Virus record (IMG/VR): IMGVR_UViG_3300017743_000112
Coordinates: 1-25,073 of that record
Direction: 5' to 3' (one strand)
Source: a virus
DNA: 25,073 nt
Both the position numbers and the translations under genes were made by a program. The notes under the pieces are model-generated. The model was given only the letters and a program-made list of their open reading frames with translations. It was not told where the DNA came from and made no database searches. Below, piece after piece: positions 4,776 through 13,804 of the stretch; the first letter of the stretch is position 1; each line of letters begins with the position of its first letter.

Positions 4776-5098
4776 TGGGTAAATTATTAGAAACTAAATT
4801 ACCGATTTCTATTGGTGAAGTTTCTTCTGAAACATTTAATCGTTTAGTAAGAGTATTAGAATTAAGTTTAAATAAAGTCGATGTAAATTCCACACTTACA
4901 GTAAACGAAACTCAACGTAATGAAAATAAATTTAATAGTGGCGATATTATATGGAATTTAACTAGTAATCAGTTACAGTTATGGACAGGCGAAAAATGGG
5001 TAAATTTATATTCAGGAAACGAAACACATTTCCAAGCGTCTGCAGAATTAGGAAATGTAACAGTTACGCTTGGTGGCGTCGTTACAATACAACTTTGA
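4775..5098 (+). CDS. Small virion-associated protein of unknown function
   Basis: This 107-residue protein starts by TAATG overlap with the gp10-like gene. It has a short helical N-terminal part (ETFNRLVRVLELSLNKVD). A beta-rich part follows, with the motif GDIIWNLTSNQLQLWTGEKW, then a C-terminal run of valine/threonine strands (ELGNVTVTLGGVVTIQL). The 'W-N-L-x-S-N-x-L-x-x-W-x-G-x-x-W' arrangement is typical of small phage fibre or tail accessory proteins that display a beta segment. Tight coupling to the gp10-like gene suggests a partner in the tail. No named family is recognised. Confidence 0.6.
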   Translation: MGKLLETKLPISIGEVSSETFNRLVRVLELSLNKVDVNSTLTVNETQRNENKFNSGDIIWNLTSNQLQLWTGEKWVNLYSGNETHFQASAELGNVTVTLGGVVTIQL

Positions 5099-5109
5099 GT
5101 AAATTAAAT

Positions 5110-5553
5110 ATGGATATTAATAAATTAAGAGAAGAATTAGAGTTTGATGAAGGCTGTGTATATGAAATTTACAATGATCATTTGGGTTATCCTACTTTTG
5201 GTATTGGTCACCTTGTGCTTGAAAACGATCCCGAACATGGAAAACCAGTTGGAACCCCAGTATCAAAGGAACGAGTTATCGAATGTTTTGAAAAAGATAT
5301 AGAGTCTGTATTTGCTGATTTAGAAAGAAATATGCCTTGGGCGTCTGATCAGCCTGAAGATATAAAACGTGTATTAGCTAATATGTGTTTTAATTTAGGC
5401 ATTACACGATTATTAAAATTTAAAAAGTTTTTAGGAGCTTTAGAATCGAAAGATTATAAAACAGCTTCTGAGGAAATGATGGACAGTAGATGGGCTACGC
5501 AAGTAGGTCCTAGAGCTGACCGATTAAAACAACGAGTATTAAACGGAGACTAA
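5110..5553 (+). CDS. Endolysin: T4-type lysozyme (glycoside hydrolase 24)
   Basis: This 147-residue muramidase should cut the beta-1,4 bond between N-acetylmuramic acid and N-acetylglucosamine in peptidoglycan. The T4 lysozyme catalytic triad is present with exact spacing: Glu14 in DEG, Asp23 in YND and Thr29 in PTFGIGH (E11, D20 and T26 in T4). The C-terminal SRWATQVGPRADRL matches the T4 region around SRWYNQTPNRA. It lacks a signal peptide or membrane anchor, so it needs a holin to leave the cytoplasm; a holin candidate lies at 7251. The ATG at 5110 gives a T4-like length. A TTG at 5095, overlapping the previous stop, would add five residues. The frame is open back to 4981, but that part is antiparallel to no known domain and overlaps the preceding gene. 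Confidence 0.93.
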   Translation: MDINKLREELEFDEGCVYEIYNDHLGYPTFGIGHLVLENDPEHGKPVGTPVSKERVIECFEKDIESVFADLERNMPWASDQPEDIKRVLANMCFNLGITRLLKFKKFLGALESKDYKTASEEMMDSRWATQVGPRADRLKQRVLNGD

Positions 5554-5677: not shown

Positions 5678-6352
5678 GTGCCTTCTCTAATAAGTAACAT
5701 CCCACATTTCAAATGTTGGGTGCGAAGGGAGTTCACCGCGAATCATACAAAATATCATGGAGAGTTTCTTCATGCAATAGCTTTTGCTGTTAATACAATA
5801 CCCGATAGGTCTTTATCGTTTCAAGTAGTTTTTACAGGCTGTGAAACTGAATATGAAGATTGGGATGAAGGTAATATTCACGGTGGAGCTATGTGGGCTA
5901 GAATGCCCATACAAGGTTTAATTGCCGATATACCTGTTGAAGAATGGGCGGTTCCTATGGAAGATCATATAGCTCAACCATGGGATTGTGAAGCGAGAGA
6001 TCATTCTGTAATAGTTATGGATAGAGTAAGTTCTAGTCCGTGGCTTTGCAAAATCGATGGAAAGTTTTATACTGGTAAATATATGTTCACTGTGGACTAT
6101 ACAGGAAACGCCATCGCGGATTGTCCTGCACAACACAAACAATCTCATGTATTATATATTACAGAAGATTGCAAATGGAAAGGTAACTTAGTTGCTTTAC
6201 CTAACAACAGGGTAAGAGCTACAAGTCCTGCTTTATGGGTGACAGGTGAAGGAGCCCCTGATTTTATTCCTTCCCAACATCTTCATTCAGCGGAAGGACA
6301 TGAAAGCTATTTAGACCCTGCAATAACTTTTAATAATTTATACGAGGATTAG
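5678..6352 (+). CDS. Conserved phage protein of unknown function
   Basis: This 224-residue protein starts at a GTG directly abutting the stop of the basic peptide. It is soluble and rich in Trp, His and Cys. Notable stretches are LISNIPHFKCWVRREFTANH, GNIHGGAMWARMP, AQPWDCEARDHSVIVMDR, SSPWLCKIDGKFYTGKYMF and HKQSHVLYITED. I recall similar proteins in marine phages (the IPHFKCWVRREF start is characteristic) but no function. Repeated His, Cys and Asp residues could bind metal, though no known metal site is evident. Position among structural and lysis genes suggests late expression. No signal peptide or membrane helix is seen. Confidence 0.7.
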   Translation: MPSLISNIPHFKCWVRREFTANHTKYHGEFLHAIAFAVNTIPDRSLSFQVVFTGCETEYEDWDEGNIHGGAMWARMPIQGLIADIPVEEWAVPMEDHIAQPWDCEARDHSVIVMDRVSSSPWLCKIDGKFYTGKYMFTVDYTGNAIADCPAQHKQSHVLYITEDCKWKGNLVALPNNRVRATSPALWVTGEGAPDFIPSQHLHSAEGHESYLDPAITFNNLYED

Positions 6353-6353
6353 T

Positions 6354-6542
6354 ATGGCTAACAGAAAAAAGACTCATAAGACTAAAGACGGTCGAACAGC
6401 TAAAAAAGGTTTATATTATAATATAAACAAAAAGCGTAAAGAAGGTAGAAAGATGCGAAAGAAAGGAGCTAAAGGTGCTCCGACTGCAGCAGCCTTTAAA
6501 CGTTCTGCTAAGACCGCTAAGAAGCCTAAAAAGAAAAAGTAA
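6354..6542 (+). CDS. 62-residue highly basic protein with KKGLYYNINKKRK motif
   Basis: Nearly half of the residues are Lys or Arg (KTHKTKDGRTAKKGLYYNI, KKRKEGRKMRKKGAKG, ending KKPKKKK). The KDGRTAKKGLYYNIN core recurs, as I recall, in many marine phage small proteins without known role. GAGG precedes the ATG. The stop overlaps the next start (TAATG), tying it to the 91-residue basic protein. DNA condensation or packaging assistance is suggested by composition and late-gene location, but host-directed action is equally open. Confidence 0.65.
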   Translation: MANRKKTHKTKDGRTAKKGLYYNINKKRKEGRKMRKKGAKGAPTAAAFKRSAKTAKKPKKKK

Positions 6543-6817
6543 TGGCTAAGCCGAAGAAACGCACAGAAAAGTCTATACGACGCACTACGAAGGGTAAGGG
6601 AGCTAATTTCCGATCTACTAAGTCTGGTGCGGGTATGACTAAAAAAGGCGTAGCGGCTTATCGACGTAAAAATCCTGGATCAAAATTAAAAACAGCGGTT
6701 ACAGGTAAAGTTAAAAAAGGTAGTAAAGCAGCAAAAAGACGTAAATCATTCTGTGCTAGATCGAAAGGTTGGAAAGGTGAACGAGGCAAAGCGGCTAGAA
6801 GAAGGTGGAAATGTTAA
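6542..6817 (+). CDS. 91-residue basic protein, DUF5872/DUF6321-like
   Basis: The protein is strongly basic and has the recurrent core GAGMTKKGVAAYRRKNPGSK, then LKTAVTGKVKKGSKAAKRR and KSFCARSKGWKG, ending RRRWKC. This GAG-T-x-KG...K-R-R-KSFCAR pattern is a known phage and viral family of unknown function; I place it near DUF5872 or DUF6321 from memory. Two conserved cysteines (in FCARS and the terminal WKC) could bridge or bind metal. It starts by TAATG overlap with the 62-residue basic gene and ends directly before the nuclease ATG. A DNA-binding or virion-DNA role is inferred from charge. Confidence 0.7.
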   Translation: MAKPKKRTEKSIRRTTKGKGANFRSTKSGAGMTKKGVAAYRRKNPGSKLKTAVTGKVKKGSKAAKRRKSFCARSKGWKGERGKAARRRWKC

Positions 6818-7250: not shown

Positions 7251-7634
7251 ATGAACGACGGACAAGGCAGGTTTGGCGGAGATATGGATCGTAATGAAGT
7301 TGAGATGGATCTCAACAAATTTATGGCGATGATACAAGAAATATCTGATCTTAAAGATAAAATAAGAGATTTAGAAGCTGACGATAAAATAAACCCACAC
7401 CAAAAATGGATTCATTTAGCTAAAGCGGTAGACTCATGGCGTATTTTTCCTAGAGCTTTTTTAACTGTTTATATTGTTTTATTGTATAAATGTACTATTT
7501 GGTTTATGGAACTACCAGAACCTAGTTTTGAACAATCAGGTCTTATATCGATTGTTGTTGGTGCAGGTGCTGCTTGGTTTGGTTTATACGCAGGTACAAC
7601 AGGGAGTAGTAAACAGTTTAAGGGTGAAGATTAG
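7251..7634 (+). CDS. Holin candidate, two transmembrane helices
   Basis: This 127-residue protein has an N-terminal charged helical region (FMAMIQEISDLKDKIRDLEA), then two membrane segments. The first is IFPRAFLTVYIVLLYKCTIW, the second GLISIVVGAGAAWFGLYAG. It ends with a charged tail, SSKQFKGED. This layout (cytoplasmic coil, two helices, short charged tail) matches many marine phage proteins annotated as holins. The holin would form membrane lesions that release the lysozyme encoded at 5110. The ATG follows the nuclease stop by one base. The stop overlaps the GTG of the next gene. Other membrane proteins in the window could share or replace this role. Confidence 0.65.
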   Translation: MNDGQGRFGGDMDRNEVEMDLNKFMAMIQEISDLKDKIRDLEADDKINPHQKWIHLAKAVDSWRIFPRAFLTVYIVLLYKCTIWFMELPEPSFEQSGLISIVVGAGAAWFGLYAGTTGSSKQFKGED

Positions 7635-8755
7635 TGAGTAAAAAAGAAGAACAACAACACGACAAGATCCTTTCATGGGCGGGTATTCTGTTTTTAATAA
7701 CAGTTGTAATTGGTTTATCTATAAACGTAAACGCTCAATCTAGCCAACAATCAGGCACAGCTTGTGTCAATGGCTCACAGTATTGTGAAAATAATAGTTT
7801 AGATACAGTCAATACAACGACGACGACTAATACCAATACTAACACCAACACAAACACTAATACAAATTCCAACACGAATAACAACACCAACGTCAACACT
7901 AATACAACAAATACGACTGCATCAAATACCAACGTAAATACGAACACGAACAATAACACCAACAATAACGTAAACACTTCAACAGCAACTTCGACATCGA
8001 ATAATACCAATACAAACAATAACGTTAATACTTCGACTTCTAATTCAACGGTTAATTCAACAGTGAATCAAAACGTTAATAATACAAATAATTCAACGTC
8101 GACATCAAATAATACGAACACTAACACTAACGTAAATCAATCGACTTCGGATTCGAACGTTACAACAGATAATCGAAACGTAAACGAAAATAACTCAAGA
8201 TCCGATAATACTAATCGGAACATAAACGAATCTAATAGTACGCAAACAATTAATCAAAACGTAAAAAGTGAAGCACCTCCTGCTTCTGCTATCGCACCTA
8301 GTATCATGTCTTACTCACAAGACCTCTGTACAACAGGTGTCTCAGGAGCTTTTCAAGGACAGGTGTTTGGTTTATCTGGTGGTAAAACTATTGTTGATGA
8401 AAACTGTGAAAGGTTAAAACTATCTAAATATTTGTATGATATGGGAATGAAAGTAGCATCGGTTGCATTGCTCTGTCAAGACGAAAGAGTGTTTAAAGCT
8501 ATGTCGATGGCAGGTACGCCTTGTCCGTATAATGGTAAAATTGGTAAAGAAGCTACTGTAGCATGGGAACAAAACCCACAAAAAAGACCTGATAAAGATG
8601 ACGCTTTAGACGAATACATAGCTCAATGTACTCATGAATCTAATCCTAATAGAGAAAAAATAAACAGAGATGTTGTGGGTGCGGTCAAAACTATTTATAC
8701 AAGAAAAACTAAAACAGCTAAACAATGCAAAAAAGAGTTTTATTCTACGCGTTAG
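7634..8755 (+). CDS. Exported or membrane-anchored Asn/Thr-rich repeat protein
   Basis: The GTG start overlaps the holin stop. Residues 1-12 are charged, 13-31 are hydrophobic (LSWAGILFLITVVIGLS), and INVNA-Q at 30-35 fits a signal peptidase I site; otherwise it is a membrane anchor. Residues 56-210 are almost only Asn, Thr, Ser and Val in NT, NNT and NVNTST units, with no Cys. The C-terminal part (211-373) looks folded: GVSGAFQGQVFGLSGG, LYDMGMKVASVALLCQDERV, then basic ends. It has eight cysteines (44, 51, 232, 258, 281, 297, 332, 365), an even number that fits disulfides outside the cytoplasm. The NT segment is probably an unfolded or beta-stacked linker. Function is unknown; cell-surface, virion-appendage and lysis roles are possible. 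Confidence 0.7.
   Translation: MSKKEEQQHDKILSWAGILFLITVVIGLSINVNAQSSQQSGTACVNGSQYCENNSLDTVNTTTTTNTNTNTNTNTNTNSNTNNNTNVNTNTTNTTASNTNVNTNTNNNTNNNVNTSTATSTSNNTNTNNNVNTSTSNSTVNSTVNQNVNNTNNSTSTSNNTNTNTNVNQSTSDSNVTTDNRNVNENNSRSDNTNRNINESNSTQTINQNVKSEAPPASAIAPSIMSYSQDLCTTGVSGAFQGQVFGLSGGKTIVDENCERLKLSKYLYDMGMKVASVALLCQDERVFKAMSMAGTPCPYNGKIGKEATVAWEQNPQKRPDKDDALDEYIAQCTHESNPNREKINRDVVGAVKTIYTRKTKTAKQCKKEFYSTR
7799..8263 (+). repeat. Low-complexity Asn/Thr-coding repeat
   Basis: The DNA here is a degenerate repeat of AAT/AAC and ACN codons (AATACNAA-type units) encoding residues 56-210 of the Asn/Thr-rich protein. Synonymous codons vary freely (ACT, ACC, ACA, ACG), so selection seems to act on the amino acids rather than on the DNA repeat. 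The opposite strand is open over 7735-8019 only because such codons read as Val and Leu in antisense. Confidence 0.8.
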
Positions 8756-10983
8756 GGTGTTTATTTAGTTTTAATGTACTAGGGCAGTATACATACGAAG
8801 CTAATCAAGACCTTTACGACCTTAATGCTAATGCTAATAACTTCAACGGTGAATTAGCGTACGAGGTATCCGATGATGGAATTAGTCCCGCGATTGATCT
8901 TTCTTTTAATTTTACTTTTTATGGCTCTACGTTTTCACAGGCGAGGATGGCAACAAATGGATGTCTTCATTTTGGTAATAGTGGCAGCTATTGTAATGAC
9001 TATACTCCTGACCCTATTAACGGACAACATACTTATACCATATACCCTTTCTGGACTGATCTCATAAGAGACAGTAACTCTCGCATGAAATCTTGGGGTG
9101 ATTCTAGCAAGATGATCTTCGGGTGGTACAATCTTCGAGAATACAATAGAAGTAATACAGATAACAGTTTTGAAGTAATACTTTGGAATAATAATTCTTT
9201 TGATTTACGCTACAGAGAATTAGAAATTATTAACCATGATGTTCTTATAGGTGAGGTAGGGGCGAATAAAACTAATTCTTATACGTATTATTATCACGAT
9301 GAGTGTAACACAGGTACAACCAATAGCTCTAGTTGCGTAAGCACTAATTGGAACAATATAACGATGAATACCACATTAGAAAACGGTGGTTCTTTATATG
9401 GTTCGGGTAGTGGTAATGGTGTTGATTGTAGCGATCCGTTAAACGATAGTAGTTGTTCAGGTTACGCAGATGCGTATCTTACACAACAATGTAATATTAC
9501 GCAGTTACATAGTGAATCTTGTCCTAATTATTGGGATGCTTATGATGATTTACAATGTGCAGACGATCCACAATACGCACCATTTTGCCAAGGTTATAGA
9601 CAAGAAGAATCAGTAGCTTTCTTCGATGACGAGCAAGTTGATTATGGTTTTATAGATGAACAAGAACAATTTGCTACAGGTATATTTACTGATGATCATC
9701 AACAACATCATGATAACTTAGGTTTTGAAGACCCTAATGAACCTATAGAAATATTTGAAGAAGAAATGTTTCCGCCTTTTGAAGAATTTGGAGATAACCC
9801 TAATGACTATTTTGAAGATCCATTTATAGAAGAATTTATTGTTTTTTACGATCCAGAGCCTTTACCTTTTATCGATAATTTTAACTCTCATCATGATGAA
9901 CCATTTCATCATCAAGACGAAGTTTTATTAGATGAATTTATATTTCAAGAAACTTTTTTGGTAGAAGATTATAGTGAGCCTGAAACCTTTATAGAGTTTA
10001 ATAATGTAGAAGAACTTGAAGAATGGTTCGAAGAAGAAACAAGAGAGCATCATGAAGAAAGACACGAAGAAGAATTAGCTGATCTTGATGAACCAGAAGA
10101 AGAATTTATTGAGGAAATCTTCGAAGAAGAAGTTGTAGAAGAAGTATTCGAAGCGATTGAAGAACGTATAGCAGAAGCTGAAATAGAAGAAGAAAGAATC
10201 GAAAGAGAAGAAATCGTAGAAGAATTCGAAGAAGTATTTGAGGAAGAGTTTCAAACTGCGGAAAGGGAAGAAGCTACAGGTAAGAGTTCTATTAGCAGAG
10301 ATATAGCTTTACGAGTTGTTTCTTCTACCCTAGCTACAGCCACACAAAGTGTAAGCGGTACAAACGCAGGTAATAGTATTCATGCTACAGGTAATAGTGC
10401 GGCTTCTGGTAACGCTGTAAGTAATAGTTCTACAGGAGCTTCGTCAGGTAACGCAGGGATAAGTACGAGTAGTTCTCCGAGTATGTCAGACCAGTTTGCT
10501 TCAGCTACAGTACAAACAAATCAAGTATTAGATATGAGTTCTATGTCTGTTTCTAGTTCTTCTACTAGTGATTCTATGAATTCAACAGACGTTAATACTT
10601 CGGTTGTTGTAGCTAACGTAAATACTAATACGGTACAAGACCAAATAGATACTTCGATTAGTTCTATGGATACATCCTCTGATACAGATACTACGGTAGA
10701 AGATTTAATCGCACAAAATTTACAAACAGCACAAGAAGAAGTAGAAGCCCAACAAGAAGAAACAGGTGAGTATGGTTCAGAAGATACAATTATTGCATAT
10801 ATGGGTTTTGTTCCTGGATTTAATACTTATGAGAAGGTTTTAATGGTAGATCAAGATCAATGGTATACGTCTAGAACCATCTATACTGAGACGATGCCTG
10901 ATAATATAAACGCTTTTTATGAACTAGCAGGTAGTAATATAACTAAAATGAACGATATAATAAATTCACAACCACCGTTATAG
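8725..10983 (+). CDS. Exported NIDO-like, Cys-repeat, highly acidic protein
   Basis: This 752-residue protein overlaps the previous gene by 31 bases. Residues 1-20 are a signal peptide (MQKRVLFYALGCLFSFNVLG, cleavage before QYTY). Residues 55-165 resemble a NIDO/lectin-like extracellular fold: FNFTFYGSTFSQARMATNG, then YPFWTDLI and FEVILWNNNSFDLRY. Residues 235-291 hold three tandem cysteine units. Residues 292-516 are extremely acidic, rich in Glu, Asp, Phe and His (for example EEFIEEIFEEEVVEEVF). Residues 520-700 are Ser/Thr/Asn-rich. A folded end follows (YGSEDTIIAYMGFVPGFNTY). The parts point to a secreted or surface protein, odd for a lytic phage gene next to a holin. Calcium binding by the acidic part is a guess. 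The ATG is chosen because the signal peptide begins there. Confidence 0.7.
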   Translation: MQKRVLFYALGCLFSFNVLGQYTYEANQDLYDLNANANNFNGELAYEVSDDGISPAIDLSFNFTFYGSTFSQARMATNGCLHFGNSGSYCNDYTPDPINGQHTYTIYPFWTDLIRDSNSRMKSWGDSSKMIFGWYNLREYNRSNTDNSFEVILWNNNSFDLRYRELEIINHDVLIGEVGANKTNSYTYYYHDECNTGTTNSSSCVSTNWNNITMNTTLENGGSLYGSGSGNGVDCSDPLNDSSCSGYADAYLTQQCNITQLHSESCPNYWDAYDDLQCADDPQYAPFCQGYRQEESVAFFDDEQVDYGFIDEQEQFATGIFTDDHQQHHDNLGFEDPNEPIEIFEEEMFPPFEEFGDNPNDYFEDPFIEEFIVFYDPEPLPFIDNFNSHHDEPFHHQDEVLLDEFIFQETFLVEDYSEPETFIEFNNVEELEEWFEEETREHHEERHEEELADLDEPEEEFIEEIFEEEVVEEVFEAIEERIAEAEIEEERIEREEIVEEFEEVFEEEFQTAEREEATGKSSISRDIALRVVSSTLATATQSVSGTNAGNSIHATGNSAASGNAVSNSSTGASSGNAGISTSSSPSMSDQFASATVQTNQVLDMSSMSVSSSSTSDSMNSTDVNTSVVVANVNTNTVQDQIDTSISSMDTSSDTDTTVEDLIAQNLQTAQEEVEAQQEETGEYGSEDTIIAYMGFVPGFNTYEKVLMVDQDQWYTSRTIYTETMPDNINAFYELAGSNITKMNDIINSQPPL
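9427..9597 (+). repeat. Three tandem C-x8/9-C-x2-Y units (protein-level repeat)
   Basis: Within the NIDO-like protein, cysteines fall at residues 235, 244, 256, 266, 278 and 288, giving a period of 21-22. Units read C-x8-C-SGYADAYLTQQ, C-x9-C-PNYWDAYDDLQ and C-x9-C-QGY. The repeat is shared at the level of Cys, Tyr and 'DAY' positions; the DNA itself has diverged. Confidence 0.75.
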
Positions 10984-10993
10984 GAGAATTACT

Positions 10994-11353
10994 ATGGATT
11001 GGTTTCAAAATAAAACAACACAAATAATTGCTTTAGTCGGTATCGTAGGTACTCTTGCTGGTTTTGGGTATACAGGTGCAGAGTATGTCAACAGGCTAGA
11101 AAACTTAGAAGCTAAGATAGGTGGTATAAGTGAAGCAGAAGATGAAATGAAAATTATAGAAGAACGTTTTGCTTCTATAGAAACATCTGTACAGTTTTTA
11201 GAAAAACAAATAGATAGTGTTGAAGTGCCTGATGTGACAGAGATAAAAACTGATATAGCCACTATCAAAGCTGACTTAATAAGTTTAGATAATAACTTAA
11301 ATAAACTAGAAGCTAAATTAGATAAAAAGGACGATAATCCATTAAACGGATAA
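10994..11353 (+). CDS. Membrane-anchored coiled-coil protein
   Basis: This 119-residue protein has one membrane helix at about residues 10-28 (IIALVGIVGTLAGFGY). A long charged, heptad-like region follows (NRLENLEAKIGGISEAEDEM, IIEERFASIETSVQFLEKQI, LISLDNNLNKLEAKLDKK). AGGAG precedes the ATG, formed partly from the TAG of the upstream stop. The shape fits an i-spanin-like or lysis-accessory protein with the coiled coil in the periplasm, or a virion-associated membrane protein. No outer-membrane spanin partner with a lipobox is seen nearby, though the NIDO-like protein has a weak ALGC near its N-terminus. The stop overlaps the next ATG. Confidence 0.6.
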   Translation: MDWFQNKTTQIIALVGIVGTLAGFGYTGAEYVNRLENLEAKIGGISEAEDEMKIIEERFASIETSVQFLEKQIDSVEVPDVTEIKTDIATIKADLISLDNNLNKLEAKLDKKDDNPLNG

Positions 11354-12673: not shown

Positions 12674-13804
12674 ATGGCAACTAGAGAAGAACAAGAATAT
12701 TCAAGTCAAGCCACCGCGGGTTATATAGGTGATCTTTTACAATCAGGTATTTTTCCTTATGCAAGAACGTTTTTAGATGACCAGTTCAATAACTTAGGTA
12801 GACCTGATAGTAGTCCGTTTACTTATACAGGTCCACGAGTAGCTCAATTTGATCCTAGAGAAAGATATGCAATGGATTTACAAGACGCGGCTATTGGTAG
12901 TTATAGACCATATTTAGGCGAACAAGCAAATTTACTAAGCGAAGCCGCAGATGTTTCTAGAGCAGGAACGGTACGTGGTGCTGACGAAATATCTCAAGGT
13001 TTAAGAAGCGGTAGAGATTTAACTGCTCAAGCGAATATTACAGGGATGGGTTCTGCACGAGCTTTTGACCCACGTGGTATAGGTAGTTTTTATAATCCTT
13101 TCGAAGATGCAGTTGTTCAACAAACACTTACAGATTTAGACCGACAAGGAGCACAACAAGATATGGCTCTTAGAGATAGAGCTGTATCTTCTGGAGCTTT
13201 CGGTGGGTCACGTGGTAGGTTAGCTCAAGGTGAGTTAGCTAGACAACAAGAACGTGGAGCAGCAGAAGCTATCGCAGGTATACGTTCAGGCGGTTTCCAA
13301 GATTCAGCTAATAGAGCACAACAAGCGTTTGAATCACAACAAAATAGACAAGCACAATTAGCAGGTCTTCAATCTCAACTAGGTCAAGGAGTCTTTGGTA
13401 TGGGGTTACAAGGTGGTCAAGGCTTAGCAGGTTTAGGTTCTCAGTTCTCACAAGGCTTTGGTCAACTCGGGCAACAATACGGTAGTATGGCTCCCGCATT
13501 ACAAGGATTACAACAAAACGATATTAACCAACAGTTAGCATTGGGCGGATTAGGTAGAGGTAGACAACAATCTCTCATGGATCTCGGTTATCAAAACTTT
13601 ACAGGTCAATACAATTTACCGATGCAAACATTACAAAACGTTGGTTCGATTACCGCGGCTCTTGGACCGTTGGCAGGTGGTTACGGTTTTGCAGGTGCTA
13701 ATCCAACAACCAATTCTATGTATGCTCCGTCTACAGCGGGGTCAATTAACAACCAAACTAATCCATTTTTCGGTGGGTTAGGTGGCTTTAGCTTTTACGG
13801 ATAA
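12674..13804 (+). CDS. Gln/Gly/Ala-rich internal virion protein candidate
   Basis: This 376-residue protein is mostly long helix followed by Gly/Gln low complexity. Features include FDPRERYAMDLQDAAIGSY, FYNPFEDAVVQQTLTDLDRQ and SSGAFGGSRGRLAQGELARQ, followed by many Gln and Ala. The stretch NPxxxxVVQQTLxDLDRQ...AxxSGAFGGSR is common in internal or ejection-type proteins of marine podoviruses, as I recall. About residues 235-300 are Gly-Leu-Gln-rich (GLQGGQGLAGLGSQFSQ). Such proteins are packaged in the head and released with the DNA. There is no signal peptide or enzyme motif. The stop overlaps the next start (TAATG). Confidence 0.65.
   Translation: MATREEQEYSSQATAGYIGDLLQSGIFPYARTFLDDQFNNLGRPDSSPFTYTGPRVAQFDPRERYAMDLQDAAIGSYRPYLGEQANLLSEAADVSRAGTVRGADEISQGLRSGRDLTAQANITGMGSARAFDPRGIGSFYNPFEDAVVQQTLTDLDRQGAQQDMALRDRAVSSGAFGGSRGRLAQGELARQQERGAAEAIAGIRSGGFQDSANRAQQAFESQQNRQAQLAGLQSQLGQGVFGMGLQGGQGLAGLGSQFSQGFGQLGQQYGSMAPALQGLQQNDINQQLALGGLGRGRQQSLMDLGYQNFTGQYNLPMQTLQNVGSITAALGPLAGGYGFAGANPTTNSMYAPSTAGSINNQTNPFFGGLGGFSFYG

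Follow-up and report, generated by a model that had tools for sequence, protein, structure and literature searches.

The 25,073-base virus record IMGVR_UViG_3300017743_000112, itself a fragment and called the window below, codes for a large exported protein, B, which an initial annotation made from the sequence had singled out. We found B to be the middle gene of a conserved set of three genes, A-B-C (the cassette), present in many aquatic bacterial viruses: A codes for a second protein with a predicted signal peptide and C for a small protein with a predicted membrane segment and coiled coil. The account we put first, though tentatively, is that B belongs to the envelope of the infected cell rather than to the virion and is the central subunit in an A-B-C complex, which would act as a late accessory of envelope disruption.

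Linkage of the three genes across viruses

We compared three sets of loci, all of them samples of best matches rather than random draws. The window-type set derives from an IMG/VR scan with B residues 1-302, which gave 406 relatives, the best 80 of which were fetched; a second IMG/VR scan with the head of B returned nearly the same 80 loci. The pelagiphage-type set derives from an IMG/VR scan with an alignment of A (at least 598 relatives, 80 loci fetched). The Cys22 set holds loci from a scan of viral contigs with the Cys-repeat pattern CPGYxxAYxxQQC. Loci without enough flanking DNA were excluded from the linkage counts, as were, from the Cys22 linkage count, open reading frames (ORFs) without a match to the hidden Markov model (HMM) of B's C-terminal domain.

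In all three sets the genes are found together. Among the window-type loci, A was recovered by motif in 72 of 74, the two misses (L014 and L071) having A by HMM, and a C gene whose product ends in an NPL motif follows in all 68 records with room, the window included. Of the pelagiphage-type loci, 46 have 3.5 kb or more downstream, and in each of them A is followed by a B with a hydrophobic N-terminus; C was found by a strict rule in 37 of these, and the remaining nine have an NPL-ended ORF of lower hydropathy. The Cys22 loci contain 64 B genes, recognized by the window's C-terminal HMM and a hydrophobic N-terminus. A lies upstream in all 58 with room, and 36 of 45 have an NPL-ended C-type gene no more than 1.5 kb downstream; the expected number per 1.56 kb is 0.056, a conservative background since it counts true C genes too. 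The HMM of the last 95 residues of B matched 67 ORFs at E < 1e-3 in the A-scan and Cys22 loci; five of these are close relatives, and the best match outside them has an E of 3.9e-11. Given this linkage and these HMM matches, the head, repeat and C-terminal domain of B and both neighboring genes travel together outside the window's clade. That B is one member of a widespread gene set, which is the main finding here, had been missed by the initial annotation.

The A core was also detected by tblastn in 11 phage records (six Pelagibacter phages, two Roseobacter phages with a diverged form, and three others), while the B head, the B C-terminus, C and two Cys22 proteins gave no match in the same phage collection. 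In these six pelagiphages and MedDCM-S28-C10 the next large gene after A shows the plan of B, with an N-terminal head, acidic middle and charged C-terminus, and is followed by a membrane-plus-coiled-coil gene; in HTVC115P, B as annotated starts without a signal peptide, and the NPL-ended gene comes three genes later. C and A co-occur in six of six records, and C is absent from all four cassette-less pelagiphages. The open literature consulted (PMC6811365, PMC12753301, PMC9004378, PMC9038755, PMC6139136; subscription papers lie mostly outside it) holds, in the parts available, no description of the cassette.

The A cores and B heads differ in how they group: 195 distinct A cores form one BLAST cluster, whereas single linkage splits 162 distinct B heads in two, a CBM-like cluster of 88 and a NIDO-like one of 74. 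A hydrophobic N-terminus is present in 193 of the 201 B ORFs (at least 300 residues) across the sets, the other eight having been dropped before clustering. Both head classes occur with the Cys repeat (31 CBM-like and 27 NIDO-like among the Cys22 heads). Two head clusters against a single cluster of A cores suggest that heads are exchanged on a constant chassis; there may be finer head classes beyond the two, since single linkage can chain.

The Cys repeat is nearly confined to viral contigs, with at least 120 stretches of the pattern there versus two in 84,980 bacterial and archaeal genomes. These two (L345 and L346) lie on contigs in Verrucomicrobia and Alteromonadales metagenome-assembled genomes, both with B and C, the second with the full cassette followed by a GH19-like endolysin, and are probably virus contigs inside those genome bins. 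The repeat keeps a 66-base register, reaches 11 units and occurs in proteins that are mostly exported.

Architecture and conservation of protein B

Of the 80 fetched B relatives, 72 are complete (the eight incomplete ones were left out); one of 524 residues (L022) was dropped, and the 71 longer than 600 residues were aligned (52 distinct sequences including the window's). The order of parts (Table 1) is kept throughout. Mean consensus identity is 0.93 over residues 56-190 and 0.61-0.73 from the acidic part onward, and the median ratio of nonsynonymous to synonymous substitution (dN/dS) against the window rises from 0.05 in the head through 0.09 in the Cys part, 0.18 in the acidic part and 0.21 in the linker to 0.25 in the C-terminal domain (43 to 66 of the 71 pairs usable per segment, with synonymous sites near saturation). 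These low values in all segments indicate purifying selection on a real ORF rather than a chance one. The parts then listed are all present; the Ser/Asn linker, the C-terminal domain and the links to genes A and C had been missed.

Table 1. Features of the window around the A-B-C cassette
Feature	Position	Strand	Basis or remark
Lysozyme-type endolysin, outside the cassette	4981..5553	+	Pfam Phage_lysozyme, E 6.7e-11
Membrane protein, two hydrophobic segments, possible holin	7251..7634	+	phrog_10198 (function unknown), E 2.9e-21
Gene A, 373 aa; predicted signal peptide (NVNA/QSS cut), Asn/Thr-rich stretch, conserved Cys-containing core (..LCQDERVFKAMSMAGTPCP..)	7634..8755	+
Gene B, 752 aa	8725..10983	+	ATG start; 31-base overlap with end of A
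B residues 1-20, probable signal peptide, probable signal peptidase I cut before Q21	8725..8784	+	Alignment of relatives
B residues 21-200, NIDO-like beta-sandwich head	8785..9324	+	AlphaFold2, alignment
B residues 235-293, two full and one partial 22-aa Cys unit (C..Y..AY...QC type)	9427..9603	+	Motif, alignment
B residues 294-518, acidic stalk, 225 aa	9604..10278	+	89 D/E, 6 K/R, 29 F, 10 H; net -83
B residues 519-660, Ser/Asn/Thr-rich linker	10279..10704	+	Alignment
B residues 661-752, C-terminal domain (..GFVPGFNTY....D..WY...IY....DN..AFY..)	10705..10980	+	HMM, conservation
Gene C, 119 aa; N-terminal membrane segment, coiled coil, ends DDNPLNG	10994..11353	+	Hydropathy, coiled-coil-type matches

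The hydrophobic N-terminus of B is probably a signal peptide, in agreement with the export first proposed: the mature start (Q/N)YTYE is preceded by G, S or A in all 78 window-type relatives (of 80) in which the start is present. The window's signal also contains a lipobox-like match, ALGC at residues 9-12, which is not conserved; a lipobox-like Cys occurs in 28 of the 78 relatives (ALGC 16, AIAC 8, LLSC 3, LVSC 1), and in 49 the only Cys of the signal region is at position 7. Hence, some B members, the window's subgroup included, possibly carry a lipid anchor.

This export signal bears on the earlier suggestion that B is a virion appendage or decoration protein, which we consider the least probable of the readings weighed here. 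While the beta head, repeats and long stalk do resemble the architecture of fibers, the conserved signal peptide and the disulfide-type repeats fit the periplasm and not cytoplasmic assembly, and the B gene is strictly linked to genes for another exported protein and for a membrane protein. Further, Pfam, PHROGs and NCBIfam provided no model covering the window's B, only weak matches to parts, and scans of ten relatives each against Pfam and PHROGs gave no tail or capsid family. The whole-protein match to a tail or capsid family lacking an export signal, which had been named as what would refute the first reading, was thus not found.

For the head, AlphaFold2 run on residues 21-293 with 47 mostly diverged sequences predicts a beta-sandwich (mean predicted local distance difference test score, pLDDT, 77; predicted template-modeling score 0.67), which bears out the extracellular-type beta domain initially proposed; run on 38 close relatives, it reached a pLDDT of 29. 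The fetched loci hold 46 distinct homologous heads at E up to 1e-5, six of them from close relatives. The NIDO-like part had been placed at residues 55-165, where the beta head indeed lies, its extent by alignment and model being about 21-200. A search with the Pfam NIDO profile (PF06119) matched two of the 47 alignment rows (best E 5.6e-4), but not the window itself, for which a Pfam search gave no family, NIDO included, even at E 10. Foldseek with the head returned no PDB match at E <= 0.001, from a library in which a NIDO structure is possibly absent, and a PDB sequence search with B gave nothing convincing. The best VIA match (Z 5.2) is a GH81 glucanase and the other top rows are beta-sandwich enzymes at Z about 5, which we read as probably reflecting the common beta-sandwich arrangement. 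Foldseek against viral models returned uncharacterized or loosely named proteins. Given the two Pfam matches, the lack of a PDB match and the VIA score, "NIDO-like" is a fair but weakly supported label rather than a statement of family membership. On the side of the other head class, two of seven pelagiphage-type B proteins match CBM_4_9 at E 0.0089 and 0.02, both below the curated cut-off. Within the head-coding region, another frame holds a 64-residue ORF with hydrophobic stretches (8873-9067), with a 63-residue counterpart in L069; it may be due to chance, as B is highly conserved there.

The three Cys units first noted correspond to three Cys pairs (C235/C244, C256/C266, C278/C288) in a 22-residue repeat, the third unit being partial, and the AlphaFold2 model places helices at residues 247-258 and 269-280, inside the units. 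Unit number varies among B relatives; one of 766 residues (L229, on the same contig as L078), 84% identical in the head, has five units by motif count.

The very acidic stretch is as long as had been counted. The regular aromatic spacing described there is borne out in part: among four segments tried, residues 430-518 show a helix-like hydrophobic periodicity greater than in shuffled sequences (p about 0.012), whereas residues 294-400 do not (p 0.28). Neither the length nor the acidity of the stalk is constant: many Cys22 members peak at 7-20 D/E per 100 residues, while pelagiphage-type members, most of them acidic, peak at 19 to 52, with fewer than 30 in 10 of 46. This variability weakens the earlier idea that a cation-binding acidic coat is the core function of B.

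Lysis neighborhood and candidate roles

Lysozyme homologs on the same strand accompany the cassette in 63 of 75 window-type loci, at -7.9 to +4.7 kb relative to A; they lie upstream of it in 14, the window's subclade among these, and downstream in 49. In one large relative (G002), A-B-C, a protein with three transmembrane segments and lysozyme are consecutive, and in HTVC023P C overlaps the M15 endolysin gene by one base. The cassette of the T7-like MedDCM-S28-C10 and Baldr and of HTVC202P is located a short distance before the gene for the large terminase, in the slot that holds the holin and Rz/Rz1 genes in T7. Directly before A in the window is the gene for a possible holin (Table 1), and a homolog of its product or of two other holin-like queries occurs in 64 of 75 window-type loci.

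In the envelope account that we favor, A and B would be secreted via Sec and their disulfides would form in the periplasm. C would be anchored in the inner membrane, its coiled coil reaching into the periplasm, and would hold B through the C-terminal domain of the latter; the acidic stalk or linker would span the periplasm; and the beta head, NIDO-like or CBM-like, would bind a conserved envelope ligand, such as peptidoglycan, lipopolysaccharide or an outer-membrane protein. The least certain step is the use of such a complex, which may be as a late accessory to host-envelope disruption beside holin, endolysin and spanin. More generally, and with clearly less assurance, A-B-C might be an undescribed virus-encoded strut across the periplasm, anchored in the inner membrane and stapled by disulfides, with an exchangeable head holding on to a conserved ligand of the envelope; it would serve late envelope control in many marine and freshwater phages of Gram-negative hosts.

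In another explanation, B or A would be a periplasmic regulator of lysis timing that senses the state of the envelope and acts on the holin; exported Cys-bearing proteins adjoin holin-like genes in those 64 loci. T4 RI is a periplasmic regulator of this kind. However, B is far larger than RI, the contact with a holin is hypothetical, and the holin-like neighbor differs between subclades; we regard this explanation as very unlikely.

The topology of C and the T7-like gene slot raised the further idea that B and C replace a spanin, with C as the inner-membrane and B as the outer-membrane part. Gene C has the i-spanin feature of an N-terminal membrane segment and coiled coil, though its orientation is presumed and the feature is not specific; likewise, the lipobox-like Cys in the signals of the window's B and some of its relatives would suit an outer-membrane part. 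According to the available part of the survey by Kongari 2018 (PMC6139136), 91 of 677 phages have no spanins, which calls for another route. Nevertheless, homologs of an Rz-like gene (phrog_739, E 9.9e-11) and an Rz1-like lipoprotein gene (phrog_812, E 1.8e-11) occur in 26 of 80 window-type loci and in four of six large relatives scanned (G001, G004, G005, G007), the other two (G002, G003) having no spanin seed match. In L058, overlapping Rz-like and Rz1-like genes (13004-13399 and 13332-13685) stand before lysozyme. In G007, B head and C are identical to those of the window and the Rz/Rz1-type pair lies about 33 kb from the cassette along the record. Since this relative carries a separate pair, A-B-C is something additional to the spanin in the window's lineage, and we rejected it as the only spanin there.

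When five cassette-bearing records (HTVC202P, Baldr, MedDCM, and bases 1-50,000 of HTVC033P and HTVC115P) were scanned for lipoboxes by a procedure that recovers T7 18.7 and lambda Rz1, the only ORFs obtained were chance-like ones of 30-71 residues. As the same scan yielded no plausible lipoprotein in the cassette-less HTVC010P, HTVC011P, HTVC019P and HTVC027P either, missing lipoproteins were discarded as support for spanin replacement. A small lipoprotein-like ORF is moreover present near the cassette in 14 of 80 pelagiphage-type loci (hits inside A and B left out). With these points on its two sides, replacement of a spanin by B and C appears improbable.

Several small lipoprotein-like genes were noted in passing. 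In L164, L165, L168, L175 and other pelagiphage-type loci, an ORF of 51-56 residues (CSVGKK.. type) precedes the end of A by about 0.8 kb, and a few pelagiphage-type A and B signal sequences pass a relaxed lipobox rule. A lipoprotein gene of 55-78 residues (CAS.PV.KEWNDKYDPA.WR.QFEECRDLL type) begins at the C stop in 23 of 68 window-type records, for example L058 (12599-12802), versus 8 of 2400 random places; its homolog in G007 is far from the cassette, and in the window the gene that follows C lacks a lipobox. Inside A, a 49-residue lipobox ORF (8268-8417), listed by the scan for only the window, L001, L002 and L005, is taken as chance.

The closest rival to the account we favor is superinfection exclusion or envelope protection, in which A-B-C would coat or cross-link the envelope and thereby block receptors or DNA entry or keep the cell intact until lysis. 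It is close to the initial idea that B may change the surface of the infected cell or block other phages. We see this as possible, with a lesser chance of being correct. The proteins are exported and nearly confined to viral contigs, two alternative head classes share one chassis, and relatives with a normal spanin pair need another job for the cassette. The late-gene setting is consistent with it too, as late regions also carry envelope genes unrelated to lysis, such as lambda bor. However, the strong constraint on the head within the clade is unlike an arms race over receptor masking, and the matches in Pfam, PHROGs and NCBIfam (PADLOC was not searched) include no known exclusion protein. 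A role as lysis accessory is, thus, slightly favored over exclusion.

Besides that bor-like precedent, several points weigh against the lysis-accessory account. As the window's lineage has a normal spanin pair, its lysis may need nothing from A-B-C. An endolysin is near the cassette in only 23 of 80 pelagiphage-type loci and 15 of 104 Cys22 loci, 10 of them on the same strand (these loci are short and the query set limited; the count is 17 if two "lysozyme" queries resembling C homologs are included), and it is far from the cassette in HTVC202P, Baldr and MedDCM. The counts from window-type loci are not independent, because these loci are closely related, and the signal, membrane and coiled-coil calls come from hydropathy-type heuristics. 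Membrane-plus-coiled-coil proteins without the NPL end exist in the cassette-less HTVC019P and HTVC027P, and the C alignment mistakenly includes one such protein, HTVC115P gp52. Given such look-alikes, the case for homology of C between the groups is based chiefly on gene position and the NPL end. Between the C-terminal domains of window-type and pelagiphage-type B there were no cross HMM matches, with an hhalign probability of 4.9%, leaving their homology unsupported. Finally, the function of A-B-C is throughout one that we infer.

Other observations concern the neighbors of the cassette and its absence. Two genes annotated as lysozyme in CRP-810 (L138, 10162-10584) and CRP-207 (L144, 3292-3873) begin with a C-like membrane segment; the annotation may be wrong, because the CRP-810 gene matches window-type C at E 8e-7 and 5e-6. 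In the cassette-less HTVC027P, gp13-gp17 (L355, 8980-10936) include gp14, an unrelated protein with the look of an exported one, flanked by two membrane/coiled-coil genes a short way before the M15 endolysin; it is possibly a functional stand-in for the cassette. The window also has tandem, very basic (Lys/Arg-rich) ORFs of 62 and 91 residues at 6354-6817, possibly nucleic-acid binding, and at 5678-6352 a member of phrog_3704 that by eye resembles HTVC033P gp43, the gene directly after C in that phage. The window's stabilization-protein gene has its best matches in phage DSL-LC04 (41%), Roseobacter phage CRP-902 (36.5%) and Pelagibacter phage HTVC027P (34%). Scanning the window for tRNAs and Rfam families gave no matches.

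Significance and comparison with known systems

The cassette occurs in hundreds of viral contigs, and its A core in six named isolates of SAR11 phages. In HTVC202P it makes up about 7% of a 32-kb genome, with its genes annotated as hypothetical. Three recurrent "hypothetical" genes thereby become nameable for annotators, together with a 22-residue Cys repeat, and the cassette offers a testable case of how marine phages handle the Gram-negative envelope, a matter in which the spanin survey left its spanin-less phages unexplained (PMC6139136, as far as available).

Among described families, phrog_20531, of unknown function, matches gene A (E 4.2e-12) but covers no other part of the cassette; B has no PHROG match and the window's C only cross-matches of the coiled-coil type. 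NIDO (PF06119) shares an all-beta head with B, but the window's B does not match its model and no solved structure gave a convincing match. Two-component spanins (Rz/Rz1) resemble the cassette in the membrane segment and coiled coil of C and in that window-type loci are often near lysis genes. They differ in that B has hundreds of residues and a probable signal peptidase I cut, and relatives of the window hold a separate Rz-like/Rz1-like pair. The "Putative carbohydrate binding domain containing protein" of Pelagibacter phage HTVC033P (gp45) and of MedDCM-OCT-S28-C10 is, like B, the product of the middle gene of A-B-C, with a signal peptide, head, acidic middle and helical-looking C-terminus; unlike the window's B, it has a CBM-like head and no Cys units, and homology of the C-terminal part is unsupported. 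Lastly, the BFVD model A0A6J5P7T5, an itself uncharacterized protein of 507 residues from an uncultured Caudovirales phage, resembles the head and Cys part of B at a Foldseek E of 8.5e-12 and a probability of 1.0.

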